NCBI GenBank assembly: GCA_009778545.1
Contig: WRJO01000006.1
Coordinates: 1-37,422 of the forward strand
DNA: 37,422 bases
Source: Treponema sp.
Lineage (GTDB): Bacteria; Spirochaetota; Spirochaetia; Treponematales; Breznakiellaceae
Reading direction: 5' to 3'
A program made the translations under genes and the position numbers. This document shows, one piece after another, positions 3,314 to 21,148 of the stretch. A model generated the notes under the pieces. That model saw nothing but the letters and a program-made list of their open reading frames with translations, searched no databases and was not told where the DNA came from. Each line of letters starts with the position of its first letter. Positions within the stretch are counted from its first letter, which is position 1.

Positions 3314-3342
3314 TTTGACTGAAGCACTACAGTGTCGCACGA

Positions 3343-3434
3343 AAGGATGGTTTCTACCGTGCAAAACGCGATATGTTGAGCGTTTTACGCGGATTGTCTG
3401 CGAAGAGGTGCATACACCGCCCATCAACTGGCTT
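3343..3434 (+). repeat. Hairpin-rich repeat copy B fused to a tRNA-Val tail
   Basis: 3343-3420 is copy B of the element at 2157-2234. It passes directly into CGCCCATCAACTGGCTT (3418-3434), which is identical to 2356-2372, the end of the tRNA fragment plus trailer. The unit promoter-copy / element / tRNA-tail therefore repeats the organisation around the real tRNA but with the tRNA body lost. The SD (GGAGG at 3448-3452) of the next gene lies just beyond. Confidence 0.75.
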
Positions 3435-16648: not shown

Positions 16649-16810
16649 TTATAAATGCTTGGGCAAATCCCATGAAGCCCTTAATATACGATAAATGGAT
16701 ATTTGCTTTTTTTCTTCGTCGATTTTATAAAATACAAAATAATTGCCAACTAACATACGGCGGTATTCAATATTTTCCGGATATTCAGAATATATTTCAA
16801 TTACTTTCAT
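16649..16810 (-). pseudogene. N-terminally truncated RelE/ParE-type toxin
   Basis: The frame encodes about 53 residues from ATG 16810 (MKVIEIYSEYPENIEYRRML). EYRRMLVGNYFVFYKIDEEKKQISIYRILRASWDLPKHL is the C-terminal half of a RelE/ParE toxin (strands, then the basic R-I-L-x-x-x-x-D end). The N-terminal ~40 residues that normally form the two helices are absent. The start overlaps the antitoxin stop in the usual way (ATGAAAGTAATTGA), so the deletion seems to have removed codons just after the start and left the junction intact. It may be inactive or may still bind antitoxin. Alternatively it is a separate short protein. Confidence 0.65.
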
Positions 16811-17000
16811 TCCAAAATTCGTTCTCATCAAGCCACACAGCATTTGGTTTAACTGCTTCGCGTTCAGCTTCAATTAGCTTTTCTGTAAAATAAGCAGATT
16901 GTGCTTTTTGTGATAGGTAATCTACATAATGTACCGCTTCTTCAAATAAAGAATGGGGTAATGTTTCAGCTTTTCTTATTAATAATTCCGTGTCCAGCAT
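16797..17000 (-). CDS. DUF2281-like antitoxin of a RelE/ParE module
   Basis: 67 aa from ATG 17000. The SD AGGAGG is 7 nt upstream, so the longer frame is rejected. LLIRKAETLPHSLFEEAVHYVDYL matches the L-P-x-x-x-x-x-x-V-x-x-(F/Y)-V-x-(F/Y)-L core of DUF2281-type antitoxins. The C-terminal tail AVWLDENEFWNE is the kind that wraps the toxin. The next frame is a truncated RelE/ParE toxin, overlapping by 14 bp. The antitoxin looks intact while its toxin is not, a common decay state of such modules. DNA binding and autoregulation are expected for the family, but no clear operator is seen upstream in the 57-bp gap to the DUF3791 gene. Confidence 0.65.
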   Translation of the reverse strand: MLDTELLIRKAETLPHSLFEEAVHYVDYLSQKAQSAYFTEKLIEAEREAVKPNAVWLDENEFWNESN

Positions 17001-17283: not shown

Positions 17284-17520
17284 CTAACACTCCGGCAGTT
17301 CAAAGGTACCGGTGTTCAGCTCTTCTTCAAAAAGCTGAAACAGTTTTTCTGCACTGTAATGCCACACCTTTGTCCTTTCATCGTCAAGTAAAAAATACAA
17401 TTGGGAACCATAGAGCCGGGAAAACGCTTCGTCCTGGGACATTCCTTTTCTTTCAATAATTTTTTGCATAAGGGCGGTTACAATAATGGGAAGTATTGCC
17501 TCGAATTTTGCTTTATCCAT
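17284..17520 (-). CDS. Small helical protein, middle gene of the DUF3990 operon
   Basis: 78 aa from ATG 17520 (MDKAKFEAILPIIVTALMQKI). Its start overlaps the end of the DUF3990 gene by 8 bp. It has a helix-rich sequence: a hydrophobic N-terminal helix, a KGMSQDEAFSRLYGSQLYFLLDDERTKVWHYS segment, and a C-terminal amphipathic helix LFQLFEEELNTGTF. The S-x-x-E-A-x-x-x-(F/L)-Y-x-S-x-(L/T)-Y-x-x-L-x-D-x-x-(T/S)-x-x-(W/Y) pattern is what I recall of small DUF3791-associated proteins. It probably forms a complex with, or neutralises, the ADP-ribosyltransferase-fold protein. Function is inferred only from its location. Confidence 0.65.
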   Translation of the reverse strand: MDKAKFEAILPIIVTALMQKIIERKGMSQDEAFSRLYGSQLYFLLDDERTKVWHYSAEKLFQLFEEELNTGTFELPEC

Positions 17521-18013
17521 CAGCCTGTCCTTCAATGTGTTCATAGCCAGTGTAGACACAATACCGCAAAGCTTTAACGGTATGAAAAAGAAATTGGTCG
17601 AAAATTCGTTCAACTTTTAAACGGATGATGGCTTCTGCCTCGGAGTAGGCCCCGGCTTCAAACAACTGTATTGTACTGTATACATTATCATTGGCTACCG
17701 GTCCAATAGCCAGATCATACCTGGCACCGGTTTCTTTTCCGCTTCGGCATGCGGTGACAAAATGCAGCCATTCCGGGCTGGGCGAATCAAAGCGGATAAT
17801 ATCCAGCTCTTGTACCGCTTTATCCATGTCAAATTCATATAAACTGATTATTTCTTTGGAAGAATTCCTCACCTGCTTAATCCTTCGTGCCCACCTTATT
17901 GCTTGCTCATGGGATGAAGTCGTATAAAACCCTTCTCCAAAATCCAACATGCGGTTGGCGGCGATAATTTTGGGTTCTGCTACGGCAGTATCACTGCCAT
18001 GGTAGAGGATCAT
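17513..18013 (-). CDS. DUF3990 protein, ADP-ribosyltransferase fold, putative toxin
   Basis: 166 aa. The N-terminus MILYHGSDTAVAEPKII fits the first strand of DUF3990/ART-clan proteins (LYHGS/T carries the NAD-contacting His). DFGEGFYTTSSHEQAIRWARR supplies the second-strand F-G-x-G-F-Y-x-T motif, and YSTIQLFEAG sits where the catalytic-strand region is expected. Residues 80-135 contain YEFDMDKAVQELDIIRFDSPSPEWLHFVTACR and DLAIGPVANDNVY, both characteristic of DUF3990. By family knowledge these belong to the ADP-ribosyltransferase superfamily. It is the first of three tightly coupled genes, arranged like a toxin with two small partners. Target and activity cannot be read from sequence. Confidence 0.78.
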   Translation of the reverse strand: MILYHGSDTAVAEPKIIAANRMLDFGEGFYTTSSHEQAIRWARRIKQVRNSSKEIISLYEFDMDKAVQELDIIRFDSPSPEWLHFVTACRSGKETGARYDLAIGPVANDNVYSTIQLFEAGAYSEAEAIIRLKVERIFDQFLFHTVKALRYCVYTGYEHIEGQADG

Positions 18014-18171: not shown

Positions 18172-18200
18172 TTGAAATTATCGTGATAATTTGCTATCAT
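18172..18200 (+). promoter_or_regulatory. Promoter with internal palindromic operator for the RelB/toxin pair
   Basis: TTGAAA (18172-18177), 17 bp, then TATCAT (18195-18200). The spacer contains a perfect 6-2-6 palindrome ATTATC-GT-GATAAT (18177-18190), and TATCAT is repeated directly after the -10. RelB-type antitoxins autoregulate by binding such sites, so this is a good candidate operator. Confidence 0.6.
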
Positions 18201-18218
18201 TATCATAAGGTGCTAATT

Positions 18219-18524
18219 ATGGTCAGTGAAAAATCAAATGTAAATGTCAAAATTGATACGGACGTAAAAGAGCTTGCTACACATCTTTTGGAGCGCATGG
18301 GCCTGGATCAGACAACCGCGATAGATATCTTTTATAGGCAGATAATAGCGGAGCGGCGTCTGCCGTTCCAACCCATTGTTGCCCAAACTTACAGCGAACA
18401 GGTGCTTGACATTATCAAACGCAAGGACATTCCGCATAAGGCTGTTGAGGTAAACCCGGACGGCCATATAATTGTTGATAAGGATAAAGACCCCGAACTC
18501 TACGATTGGGCAGTGAATGGGTAA
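18219..18524 (+). CDS. RelB/DinJ-family antitoxin
   Basis: 101 aa from ATG 18219, with AAGG 8 nt upstream. NVNVKIDTDVKELATHLLERMGLDQTTAIDIFYRQIIAERRLPF is the ribbon-helix-helix DNA-binding domain of RelB/DinJ: a V-x-V-K-I-D strand, a G-L-x-x-x-x-A-I-x-x-F helix, then L-P-F. The C-terminal half (VEVNPDGHIIVDKDKDPELYDW) is an acidic tail that would contact the toxin. The stop overlaps the next start (TAATG), giving coupling. Preceded by a promoter with a palindrome. The partner is not a RelE/YafQ toxin as usual but a PemK/MazF-like protein. Confidence 0.8.
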   Translation: MVSEKSNVNVKIDTDVKELATHLLERMGLDQTTAIDIFYRQIIAERRLPFQPIVAQTYSEQVLDIIKRKDIPHKAVEVNPDGHIIVDKDKDPELYDWAVNG

Positions 18525-18850
18525 TGAATATATTTGATATTTTCATTGCCTACATTTCGTGGGGAAGCGAGGGCAAGAAACGTCCTGTCCTTATATTAGA
18601 GCAACAGCCAATGGTTATTAATGTGTTTAATATTACAACGCAATATGAAAATAAGAGCGAAGCTATTCGGAGTAAATACTTCAAAATAAACGACTGGCAG
18701 AAGGCGGGGCTCGACAAGCAATCGTATATTGATACGAATGTTGTTCGGGACTTGCCGCCAAGTGCATTGGATGGGAAAACGGCAATAGGCAAACTAACCG
18801 AATACGACGTGCAAAAGTTCCTTGAGTTCTTAACAAAACAAGATGGATGA
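18524..18850 (+). CDS. PemK/MazF-like toxin
   Basis: 108 aa from ATG 18524, overlapping the antitoxin stop. FIAYISWGSEGKKRPVLILEQ matches the first loop and strand of the PemK/MazF fold (x-G-x-K-R-P-V-L-(I/V)-L), where the Arg contacts RNA. INVFNITTQ follows, and IDTNVVRDLPPSALDGKTAIGKLTEYDVQKFLEFL corresponds to the C-terminal strand and helix (the T-x-x-(I/V)-R motif followed by a G-x-L helix). MazF-like proteins are ribosome-independent endoribonucleases. The sequence is divergent, so activity is not certain. Pairing with RelB rather than MazE/PemI would be a hybrid module. Confidence 0.68.
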   Translation: MNIFDIFIAYISWGSEGKKRPVLILEQQPMVINVFNITTQYENKSEAIRSKYFKINDWQKAGLDKQSYIDTNVVRDLPPSALDGKTAIGKLTEYDVQKFLEFLTKQDG

Positions 18851-18976: not shown

Positions 18977-20878
18977 CTACCTATACAGCCCGCGAATCTC
19001 CCTGGCGTAGAGCGCCGAGATGCGGTGGCGCATAAGGTCCTGCTTGGCGGAAAGTTCCCTGCCCATTTCAAACGGCTTTGTCAGCAGGGCGAATTTGTAA
19101 ATCCGCTCGAATGGTTTAAAGCCGGTTTTGGCATTGATGCGTTCGCTCAGTTCGGATGCGATAAGCTCGTTGATTTCCGGCTGCTGCAATAACAGTTCGT
19201 AGTCGACAATGGGAATGCTGTGCTCTTCGGCAAAGGCCATGATCGCCTCCTGCCGGGGAACGATAAGGGCGGCGAGGTATTTCTGATCCTGGCCCACCAC
19301 CATGCAGTGCAATATGCTGGGGCTTTCGCGCATGGTTTGCTCCAGGGGAACCGGTTCGACGTTTTCGCCGCCCCGCAGCACGATCGTGTCTTTGGCGCGT
19401 CCTGTTATGCGCAATTCGTTGTCGTGGGTAAGCATGCCGATGTCGCCGGTGTTGAGCCAGCCGTCTTCGCTCAGTACTGCGGCGGTGGCTTCGGGGTTAT
19501 TATAATAGCCCTTCATCACCTGCCTGCCCCGGACGTAGATAAGCCCGTTGCGGCCCGGCGGCAGGGAATTGCCGTTCCTGTCAACAATTTTCGCTTCGGT
19601 TTCAAGCAGCAATTGGCCGATGGTTCCCCGCCGCGAACGCTTGTACTGCCGCACGCTGATAAGGGGGGCAGTCTCGGTAAGGCCGTAGCCCTCCTGCAAA
19701 CGGAATCCCGCCGAATTGAAAAACATGTCCACCCGCGCAGGCAGGCTGCCCCCGCCGGAAATTGCCGTTTTGAAACGGCCGCCCAGCCGCCGCTTTATCC
19801 GGTTGAACACCAACGCCTGGGCAAGGCCCCTGCCCGGCAGCAGCAGCAGCCAGGGAAAAAAGCCGATAACCGAATCCAGCAGGCGGATGCGGCCCCGGAA
19901 ATTGGGCAAAAGGCCGAAAGTCAAATCCCTGAAATAGGTGTACATCATCGAGAGGGAAACGGCCAGATCAAAAAGCTTTTTGGTAAAGCCACGCTTGACG
20001 TTTCGGGTGATGCCGTCCATGATCGCCTCCCAAACGCGGGGAACGCTGACCATCCAGTGCGGCTTTATCGCCGGAAAATCCGCCATCAGCACCGATGAAA
20101 TGGGTTTGGAATAGGCAATGCTGTTCTGGTAATAAAAAATAATGTATTCCATTTCCCGTTCGTACACATGCCAGACCGGCAGCACGGAAAGCCAGATGTC
20201 GGCGGGCTTAAGATCAAGCACCAGAACAAACGACGGCAGTTGGCAGAGGAAGTTGCGGTGGCTGAGCATGACGCCCTTGGGCTTGCCCGTCGTGCCGGAC
20301 GTAAAAATTATCGTGGCGGTATCCTCTTCCTCCCCCAGGTCCATTTCCGCCTCGGCGCCGCCGGGATGCATGGCTTCGCTCTTTTGCCCAAGGGCGATAA
20401 CGCTGGCAAAGTAATGCACCGTTACGCCAGCCGCCGCCGCCGCGTCTTCGGTTTCCCGGTCCACCGGGTCAAAGGTTACCAGGGTTTTCAGTTCGGGCAG
20501 TTCCGGCTTGCAGGACAGAATTTTCAGCGCCTGTTTCTGATTTTCGGCAAAAGAAAGCCGGCATTTGGTGAAGCCCAGGATGTAGGCAAGCTCCTGAACA
20601 GTCGTGTCGCCGCCCCTCGGCACGTCCGCCGCGCCAAGGGTAAGGATTCCAAAATCGGTGACCATCCACTCATGGCGGTTGTCGGAAATCAGCCCGACAT
20701 TGTCAAAGCGGGCGACGCCAAGCTCCTTAAGCCCGGCGGCAAGGAAGCACATCTCCTCGTAAAACTGCCGGTAGCTTTTCGATCTGAAAGCGCCGGAAGG
20801 ATCTTTATAGTACTGGATAGCAATTTCAGGGCTTTCTTTGGCCCTTGTCCTCAGCATCAGCGGCAGGGTCTTTTCCAT
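18977..20878 (-). CDS. Long-chain fatty-acid--CoA ligase (AMP-forming)
   Basis: 633 aa, typical for bacterial long-chain acyl-CoA synthetases of the AMP-binding superfamily. It activates fatty acids to acyl-CoA through an acyl-adenylate. Motifs in order: the P-loop TIIFTSGTTGKPKGVMLSHR at ~185-205; GYGLTETAPLIS at ~395; NTGDIGMLTHDNELRITGR at ~475-495; and IVLRGGENVEP, which carries the hinge and Gly-rich turn. The C-terminal AKQDLMRHRI holds a lysine near the expected catalytic position. SD GGAGG lies 6 nt upstream of ATG. A strong promoter (20920-20948) and a palindrome at its start region suggest regulation. No other fatty-acid gene adjoins it. Confidence 0.92.
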   Translation of the reverse strand: MEKTLPLMLRTRAKESPEIAIQYYKDPSGAFRSKSYRQFYEEMCFLAAGLKELGVARFDNVGLISDNRHEWMVTDFGILTLGAADVPRGGDTTVQELAYILGFTKCRLSFAENQKQALKILSCKPELPELKTLVTFDPVDRETEDAAAAAGVTVHYFASVIALGQKSEAMHPGGAEAEMDLGEEEDTATIIFTSGTTGKPKGVMLSHRNFLCQLPSFVLVLDLKPADIWLSVLPVWHVYEREMEYIIFYYQNSIAYSKPISSVLMADFPAIKPHWMVSVPRVWEAIMDGITRNVKRGFTKKLFDLAVSLSMMYTYFRDLTFGLLPNFRGRIRLLDSVIGFFPWLLLLPGRGLAQALVFNRIKRRLGGRFKTAISGGGSLPARVDMFFNSAGFRLQEGYGLTETAPLISVRQYKRSRRGTIGQLLLETEAKIVDRNGNSLPPGRNGLIYVRGRQVMKGYYNNPEATAAVLSEDGWLNTGDIGMLTHDNELRITGRAKDTIVLRGGENVEPVPLEQTMRESPSILHCMVVGQDQKYLAALIVPRQEAIMAFAEEHSIPIVDYELLLQQPEINELIASELSERINAKTGFKPFERIYKFALLTKPFEMGRELSAKQDLMRHRISALYAREIRGLYR

Positions 20879-20920: not shown

Positions 20921-20948
20921 TAATAGATAATTTCGATTTTTTTTTCAA
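20920..20948 (-). promoter_or_regulatory. Promoter of the acyl-CoA ligase gene
   Basis: On the minus strand TTGAAA (20948-20943), 17 bp including an A tract, then TATTAT (20925-20920), about 40 bp upstream of ATG 20878. The A-rich spacer is typical of strong promoters. Confidence 0.6.
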
Positions 20949-20974
20949 GCGGGAAGAAAGATAATCGGGAAAAC

Positions 20975-21017
20975 AAAAAAAACCCCCCGGGAAAAGGAGG
21001 TGAGGAAACCCGGGAGG
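20975..21017 (-). terminator. Intrinsic terminator of the small RNA
   Basis: On the minus strand CCTCCCGGG (21017-21009) pairs with CCCGGGGGG (20991-20983) over 9 bp including one T-G pair, followed directly by eight T (20982-20975). The loop is 17 nt. This is the clearest intrinsic terminator in the window. Confidence 0.85.
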
Positions 21018-21113
21018 CAGTCTGACGTAACGGTGTTGCTAAACTGAGATGTTACGCTGTAGATGATTGTTAGGCTAAGCTGTAATAATTCATCTATTCC
21101 GTTTCATCATTCT
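20975..21113 (-). ncRNA. Predicted small RNA with anti-Shine-Dalgarno terminator loop
   Basis: No open frame lies between the acyl-CoA ligase and the gene at 21336, but the minus strand has a complete transcription unit: a promoter at 21120-21148, a ~135-139-nt transcript and a strong terminator at 20975-21017. The RNA would contain three stems: TAGATGA/TCATCTA (7 bp, perfect), GCGTAAC/GTTACGT (7 bp with one G-U), and the terminator stem. The 17-nt terminator loop includes UCACCUCCUUU, identical over 11 nt to the usual 3' end of 16S rRNA (positions 20993-21003 on the plus strand). A loop that copies the anti-SD could pair with ribosome-binding sites. No known RNA family was recognised (not 6S, tmRNA, SRP RNA or RNase P). 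Existence likely; function inferred. Confidence 0.65.
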
Positions 21114-21119
21114 AACTCA

Positions 21120-21148
21120 AATATATGAATTTTCTATTGAGGTTTCAA
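21120..21148 (-). promoter_or_regulatory. Promoter of the small RNA
   Basis: TTGAAA (21148-21143 on the minus strand), 17 bp, then TATATT (21125-21120). Predicted start near 21113. Confidence 0.6.

Follow-up and report, generated by a model that had tools for sequence, protein, structure and literature searches.

Can the loop of a transcription terminator be the working part of a small RNA, and what would such a loop do when it copies the tail of 16S rRNA? A locus in a 37,422-nt stretch of DNA from a termite-gut-type Treponema sp. (contig WRJO01000006.1, here called the window) raises this question. The original prediction placed on its minus strand a promoter and a short non-coding transcript, ending in a terminator whose loop carries an anti-Shine-Dalgarno sequence, and proposed an RNA that either binds Shine-Dalgarno (SD) sequences or mimics the ribosome. 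Here, we report a comparative analysis of this locus and of its relatives in the class Spirochaetia. We are nearly certain, from sequence comparison, that the locus holds a small-RNA gene that has been conserved and whose anti-SD loop is under selection. The best overall explanation, to which we assign a probability of roughly 0.6, is a trans-acting small RNA (sRNA) whose loop would pair with SDs and lower translation initiation. The gene architecture, a covarying stem, an invariant loop, changing neighbours and an exceptional SD ahead of rpsU are read from the sequences themselves; the conditional part of the proposal comprises transcription, stability, SD pairing in the cell, repression, the leading place of rpsU among the targets and independence of Hfq. 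The RNA family is apparently absent from Rfam and spread over a bacterial class, and the part under selection copies the tail with which the ribosome finds messages; a terminator loop holds this copy as the stem around it drifts. If the loop does pair with SDs, spirochaetes without detectable Hfq would possess a brake on initiation, with rpsU as a candidate first target, and small-RNA control would be tied to ribosome heterogeneity.

Architecture of the predicted RNA

The locus and its downstream neighbour comprise the following features.

21120–21148, minus strand: sigma-70-type promoter TTGAAA-17-TATATT (−35 box 21148–21143, −10 box 21125–21120)
20975–21113, minus strand: predicted small RNA of ~139 nt, its ends deduced from the promoter and the U tract
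21099–21110, minus strand: 5′ arm of the closing helix P1 (alignment A6, helix 8–19/101–112)
21060–21096, minus strand: inner hairpin P2, UAGAUGA (21096–21090) with UCAUCUA (21066–21060), from the predicted fold
21022–21033, minus strand: 3′ arm of P1, directly 5′ of the terminator hairpin (predicted fold and alignment)
21009–21018, minus strand: 5′ arm of the terminator stem, GCCUCCCGGG (hairpin alignment)
20992–21008, minus strand: 17-nt terminator loop, UUUCCUCACCUCCUUUU (hairpin alignment)
20993–21003, minus strand: anti-SD stretch UCACCUCCUUU, the same as the 3′ tail of 16S rRNA in relatives
20982–20991, minus strand: 3′ arm of the terminator stem, CCCGGGGGGU (hairpin alignment)
20974–20981, minus strand: U tract of the intrinsic terminator (sequence)
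18977–20878, minus strand: AMP-binding acyl-CoA synthetase gene, the downstream neighbour (Pfam PF00501, 2.6e-76)

The promoter, a predicted ~139-nt transcript and the strong terminator were borne out by sequence on the minus strand between 21148 and 20975; both promoter boxes are as first described, but most homologues have a stronger −35 box, TTGAC[CTG], than the TTGAAA of the window. The predicted fold of the transcript (21113–20975) has an energy of −39.2 kcal/mol, compared with a mean of −27 for shuffled sequences (z = −3.29; 1 of 200 shuffles was as good). It consists of a long P1 closing stem that encloses inner hairpins, followed by a separate 10-bp terminator hairpin whose 17-nt loop is fully open. 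P1, which closes the 5′ end by pairing 21110–21099 with 21033–21022, is the best-supported helix of the body.

The window contains UCACCUCCUUU a single time, and none of 100 shuffles contains it; its presence in the loop is not due to chance. The host assembly, which is 67.8% complete, yielded no 16S match. In all six relatives considered (four from the host's family, two from its order), the 16S 3′ end reads ...GGATCACCTCCTTTC..., so the predicted 11-nt identity to the 16S tail is established for these relatives.

Conservation across the family and the class

Breznakiella homolactica, the nearest named relative, carries the same hairpin with an identical loop upstream of its acyl-CoA synthetase gene (homologue L001, 64% identical). 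Across the family, a pattern search for the loop region with up to two mismatches matched 155 of 195 genomes, chance matches included, and model R1 at E ≤ 2.1e-12 matched at least 118 family genomes by a hand count among the matches listed for the order-wide draw. We aligned 41 of 45 distinct family hairpins (alignment A2), omitting L087, which has a loop insertion, and the near-duplicates L124, L129 and L130; L110 and L139 had been removed before the set of 45 was formed. Every one of the 410 cells of the terminator stem is a standard pair, and 4 of the 10 pairs show compensatory changes. None of 500 shuffles equalled the alignment in paired cells, in pairs with a change in both arms or in covariation score, whereas 61 of 500 reached its number of pair types; the signal was lost on sliding the partner arm.

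In contrast to these varying stem positions, none of the 41 distinct hairpins departs from ACCUCCUUUU in the loop. Terminator loops are generally expected to be free to vary, and an invariant loop on a varying stem is therefore the reverse of expectation; a freely varying loop, which the original prediction had named as grounds for giving it up, is not what the family displays. Because the loop barely changes while the hairpin around it does, the RNA probably blocks the starts of messages. Separately, four genomes from three family genera (G011, G014, G010 and G015; loci L182–L185) carry, besides the main RNA, a second hairpin with a shorter loop (for example, UUUUUCUCCUUUU).

The promoter and the body are conserved along with the hairpin. 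Of 80 loci, the window among them, 77 are preceded by the pattern TTG[AC][CA]-N18-TAN3T; dinucleotide shuffling yields a mean of 1.75 of 80. These counts come from a set of 81 loci, which omits L085, L203 and L204 (the same places as other loci), L151–L180, and matches that failed the regular expression or the stem test, L087 among them; L114 has no upstream sequence, leaving 80 loci for the promoter. P1-type pairing of at least five pairs appears in 75 of 80 predicted folds, compared with 48% of shuffled bodies, and averages 12.7 pairs in the homologues and 4.9 in the shuffled bodies. In 20 aligned RNAs, 88.9% of P1 cells are standard pairs and 5 of the 12 pairs changed on both sides; RNAalifold recovers the same helix. 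Pairs changed on both sides are found in the terminator stem and in P1. Arms resembling those of P2 can be seen in several RNAs of the host genus, and P2 is absent from the RNAalifold consensus fold. An automatic promoter call puts the length of the predicted body 5′ of the terminator at 27 to 160 nt, although some of its extremes are probably wrong. As judged from these sequences, the length of the scaffold is free, and what stays constant is a closed 5′ end together with the terminator and its loop. Several genus members show, at the RNA 5′ end, a short AUG...UGA reading of 5–6 codons; it was rejected by eye as a coding sequence, as it has no SD and is missing in some other genera.

Related hairpins with varied loops occur throughout the class Spirochaetia. 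Model R1 matched 247 of 390 genomes of the order at E ≤ 0.01 and 172 of 394 genomes of the class at E ≤ 0.001, and model R2, built from 57 family, order and class hairpins, matched 114 of 392 genomes of the phylum at E ≤ 1e-4, 14 of these being listed outside the class. On 30 unrelated genomes, however, R1 matched 15 at E ≤ 0.01 with a best score of 35.2 bits, so R1 matches below ~36 bits, which include most of the weak ones in Treponema-type genera, count as unproven and the loose tallies are inflated; this control covers R1, and weak R2 matches likewise count as unproven. Four of five loci inspected in the unrelated genomes lack an anti-SD loop, and the fifth (L263, next to what looks by eye like a flagellin gene on the opposite strand) carries the loop sequence, but its stem is weak, and it was taken as chance. 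Some good genomes speak against the proposal: the R1 class and R2 phylum searches gave no match in the 1.1-Mb Treponema genome G204, and the order-wide search gave no R1 match in at least five g10 genomes and a weak one in G025.

Among stronger class matches, 20 of 20 loci examined (41–57 bits) carry CUCCUUU in the terminator loop. In nine of the 20 (L279, L280, L282–L287 and L291), the anti-SD motif is repeated immediately before the terminator hairpin, either within a small hairpin (for example, CAUC-GACCUCCUUUU-GAUG) or in an open stretch. When the 57 hairpins are aligned, 99.1% of 568 cells pair; the cells changed on both sides (109) and the covariation score exceed all 500 shuffles, and the number of pairs changed on both sides (8 of 10) was reached by 111 of 500. 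All 57 hairpins contain CUCCUU and 56 contain CUCCUUU, an invariance that outside the family is partly ascertainment because the search models include the loop. A model with a reversed loop (R3) matched 140 of 394 genomes at E ≤ 0.001, many at the same loci and mostly with lower scores, a few, such as those at G502:C70, G492:C11 and G641:C136, being higher than with R1; since the reversed loop still contains CUCCUUU, R3 is a poor control, and we give it no weight either way.

Readings of the conserved loop

The reading of the RNA as SD-binding fits the comparative evidence of a promoter, a covarying stem, an invariant anti-SD loop and a standalone gene. Such an RNA would probably be stable, with its 5′ end tied up in P1 and its 3′ end formed by a strong terminator hairpin, which would present a single-stranded 17-nt copy of the 16S tail. 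The loop would base-pair with SD sequences and compete with the 30S subunit, resulting in less translation initiation. Predicted pairing energies of loop and 16S tail are equal on most ordinary SD strings tried (for example, −12.0 kcal/mol each on AAAGGAGG), which suggests that the RNA, if abundant, would be a competitor of 30S subunits. On these models, ribosome-binding sites could be masked broadly, as first proposed. Because pairing strength tracks the length of SD complementarity, messages with extended SDs would be affected first, and rpsU, which encodes bS21, is the best predicted target in the family.

The loop could instead be a decoy of the ribosome's tail that titrates a protein of the 16S 3′ end (bS21, the GTPase Era or an endonuclease), a protein-binding version of the ribosome mimic that we judge quite unlikely. 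Its 11-nt copy of the 16S tail would suit such a role, bS21 is present in 30 of 30 spirochaete genomes, and, in the part of PMC12054373 available to us, a complex of a non-coding RNA with bS21 is reported in other bacteria. Outside the family, however, the UCA near the start of the copy is often lost (loops UUUUAUACCUCC, UUUCCUCC and UUUUUUCUCCUCC) while CUCCUU is kept, and an anti-SD core without its flank is better suited to SD pairing. Proteins of the 16S tail such as Era read the UCA part, and its loss outside the family disfavours Era mimicry in particular.

We consider it very unlikely that the hairpin is a conserved intrinsic terminator and nothing else, with the loop kept for termination and the RNA lacking a role in trans. 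Hairpin and U tract do make a strong terminator by sequence, but promoter and body helix are conserved too, and other large-loop hairpins share no loop motif. A survey of 927 kb of spirochaete DNA found 138 distinct terminator-like hairpins with large loops, 88 of which contain CTCCTTT, as expected because most loci were chosen for it; among the 50 others, no loop 7-mer is present more than twice. In the surveyed DNA, an anti-SD motif is not a general habit of terminators.

That the RNA is a leader or attenuator acting in cis on the acyl-CoA synthetase gene downstream is, in our estimate, highly improbable. That gene starts ~95 bp past the U tract in the window, and a synthetase homologue adjoins the RNA in 18 of 81 loci, 15 times downstream on the same strand. 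In the remaining three, which lie elsewhere in the family, it is upstream and divergent, and 12 loci of the host's own genus have a different gene (by eye an AI-2E-like transporter) upstream on the other strand; many of the 81 loci have short flanks, so these neighbour counts are lower bounds. The synthetase gene has its own promoter-like site at 20948–20920 and is not counted as part of the RNA, and casual inspection revealed no conserved antiterminator. The RNA does not hold the fixed position upstream of the synthetase gene that would mark a cis-regulatory leader; its neighbours vary even within the genus, which indicates an independent gene. Finally, the notion that the other strand matters, with AAAAGGAGGTGA serving as a ribosome-binding site, is extremely unlikely: although the complement of the loop is a perfect SD, homologues too have their U tract and promoter on the minus strand, and no plus-strand open reading frame (ORF) of at least 60 amino acids begins just after AAAAGGAGGTGA.

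SD pairing by a trans-acting sRNA thereby remains the preferred reading, and the features expected of such an RNA are in place: its own promoter and Rho-independent terminator (by sequence, 77 of 80 loci), a conserved pairing region exposed in a loop and independence of a fixed neighbour, the last assessed at many loci with short flanks. The mode of action would probably resemble that of known anti-SD sRNAs. Rfam 15 gives no match at the gathering score over the RNA in the window. In E-value mode, 30 relatives' loci gave, apart from TD-2 elsewhere in one locus, only sub-threshold scores: LhrC at 34.9 bits against a gathering score of 110 (L287), anti-hemB at 25.9 against 49.5 and ctRNA at 23 against 50.

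The alpha-r14/cuckoo RNAs of Alphaproteobacteria (such as NfeR1), as described in the available part of PMC10746234, act in trans and expose an ultraconserved anti-SD motif unpaired in three hairpins whose stems vary. The spirochaete RNA is alike in its ultraconserved loop on varying stems. In contrast, their motif is CCUCCUCCC, which the spirochaete loop UUUCCUCACCUCCUUUU does not contain, and their three motif hairpins stand against a single CACCUCCUUU loop inside a terminator, a second motif copy occurring in some other spirochaetes only. They also belong to another phylum, and the spirochaete RNA has no Rfam match. In the LhrC family of Listeria (RF00616), CU-rich stretches, one of them in the terminator loop, bind the SD region of lapB mRNA, and the C-rich-loop sRNAs of the RsaE type in Gram-positives bind target mRNAs at the SD through a UCCC motif (both as given in the part of PMC4132741 available to us). 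LhrC RNAs are multicopy, Gram-positive and defined by UCCC; the window locus does not match them, and relatives reach at most 34.9 of the 110 bits for gathering. RsaE-type RNAs differ in that the spirochaete RNA has no Rfam match. As the defining features of each fail, the spirochaete RNA is neither an alpha-r14/cuckoo nor an LhrC RNA. The suggestion that an exact anti-SD loop is unusual holds only in part, given the anti-SD loops known, from the source parts cited above, in alpha-r14 and LhrC-type sRNAs. A copy of TD-2 RNA (RF03162), an sRNA family, lies near the relative of the spirochaete RNA in one Treponema-type genome (L194), and was rejected as the same RNA: at L194:397–517 (plus strand), it is a separate element ~530 nt upstream of the anti-SD hairpin (1044–1090). 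The text of PMC2864571 contains no occurrence of TD-1, TD-2 or Treponema.

A search for Hfq (PF17209) found it in 0 of 14 spirochaete genomes and, as control, in 5 of 14 named genomes, the host assembly being 67.8% complete; the RNA may accordingly be one that would act independently of Hfq. The literature searched, at the level of titles and listings, held no report of such an RNA in spirochaetes and few small-RNA studies on Spirochaetia.

Candidate targets and rpsU

In 12 genomes, the complement of the 17-nt loop with up to two mismatches occurs at 84 sites, RNA genes included, compared with 108 for the reversed pattern, and a class of full-length complementary targets was rejected because sites do not exceed this control. 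The RNA gene itself is the zero-mismatch site in 9 of the 12 genomes and carries one mismatch in G010, G011 and G015; the sole other zero-mismatch site, in G040, lies ahead of a 25-codon ORF. The exact 11-mer AAAGGAGGTGA, by contrast, occurs at 59 sites in the 12 genomes versus 20 for the reversed pattern, with RNA genes and 16S antisense sites included. We read 50 of the 59; coordinates assign the remaining nine to four RNA genes, four 16S antisense sites and one rpsU (G015). The only gene start seen to recur between genera among the 11-mer sites is that of rpsU (six genomes, four genera). A site within coding sequence also recurs (L369 and L379), and G015 has several other genes with such an SD.

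Across the Spirochaetia, 28 of 29 rpsU leaders read contain GGTGA in an extended SD such as AAAGGAGGTGA or AAGGGAGGTGA (examples outside the window are G000:C1:33084–33268 and loci L331–L360; the motif used missed the rpsU of G141). The gene was found in 30 of 30 spirochaete genomes, and its starts, assigned by alignment (n = 29), are UUG in 11, GUG in 6, AUC in 4, AUG in 4, AUA in 2, AUU in 1 and CUG in 1. Predicted pairing of the loop with rpsU leaders, using equal 20-nt windows in 17 family genomes, ranges from −17.9 to −22.4 kcal/mol; of 295 background ORFs (best candidate start of each; background median −8.9), 0 to 2 pair at least as strongly; an earlier comparison of a 30-nt rpsU window with the 20-nt background gave the same ranks. 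By these models, the loop is as strong as the 16S tail on ordinary SDs and stronger on rpsU leaders than on ordinary SDs.

Among the genes examined, these comparisons put rpsU first as a predicted target, and we regard it as doubtful that rpsU is the main target of the RNA. The 16S tail is predicted to pair better than the loop with the rpsU SD in 14 of 17 family genomes, so the extended SD is explicable without the RNA and may be tuned to the ribosome alone. Exceptionally strong rpsU SDs are also a feature of Flavobacterium and other Bacteroidota, where they are attributed to autoregulation by ribosomes lacking bS21, and the term ‘small RNA’ has no occurrence in the available part of the source (PMC9976891). 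A more far-reaching idea, which we hold to be unlikely, is that a class-wide RNA, as a free copy of the anti-SD tail, would act in one circuit with rpsU, its extended SD and its weak start codon, and so set the level of bS21 and hence the share of ribosomes with open or covered tails. Were it true, the RNA would regulate ribosome composition rather than one pathway.

Other features of the window are recorded here for completeness. About 2 kb from the RNA, a RelB-family antitoxin gene is followed by a PemK/MazF-like toxin gene (Pfam; 18183–18850, plus strand); near them lie a DUF3990 protein gene (17513–18013, minus strand; Pfam 2.3e-46) and a weak, sub-cut-off ParE-like match (16649–16873, minus strand). 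At 2046–2373, a tRNA-Val (CAC) is followed 242 bp further on by a repetition of its 3′ end (44 nt, 82%). In addition, 2148–2240 and 3335–3427 form a 93-nt repeat (89%). Together, the tRNA-Val 3′-end copy and the repeat may mark an insertion at the tRNA gene.
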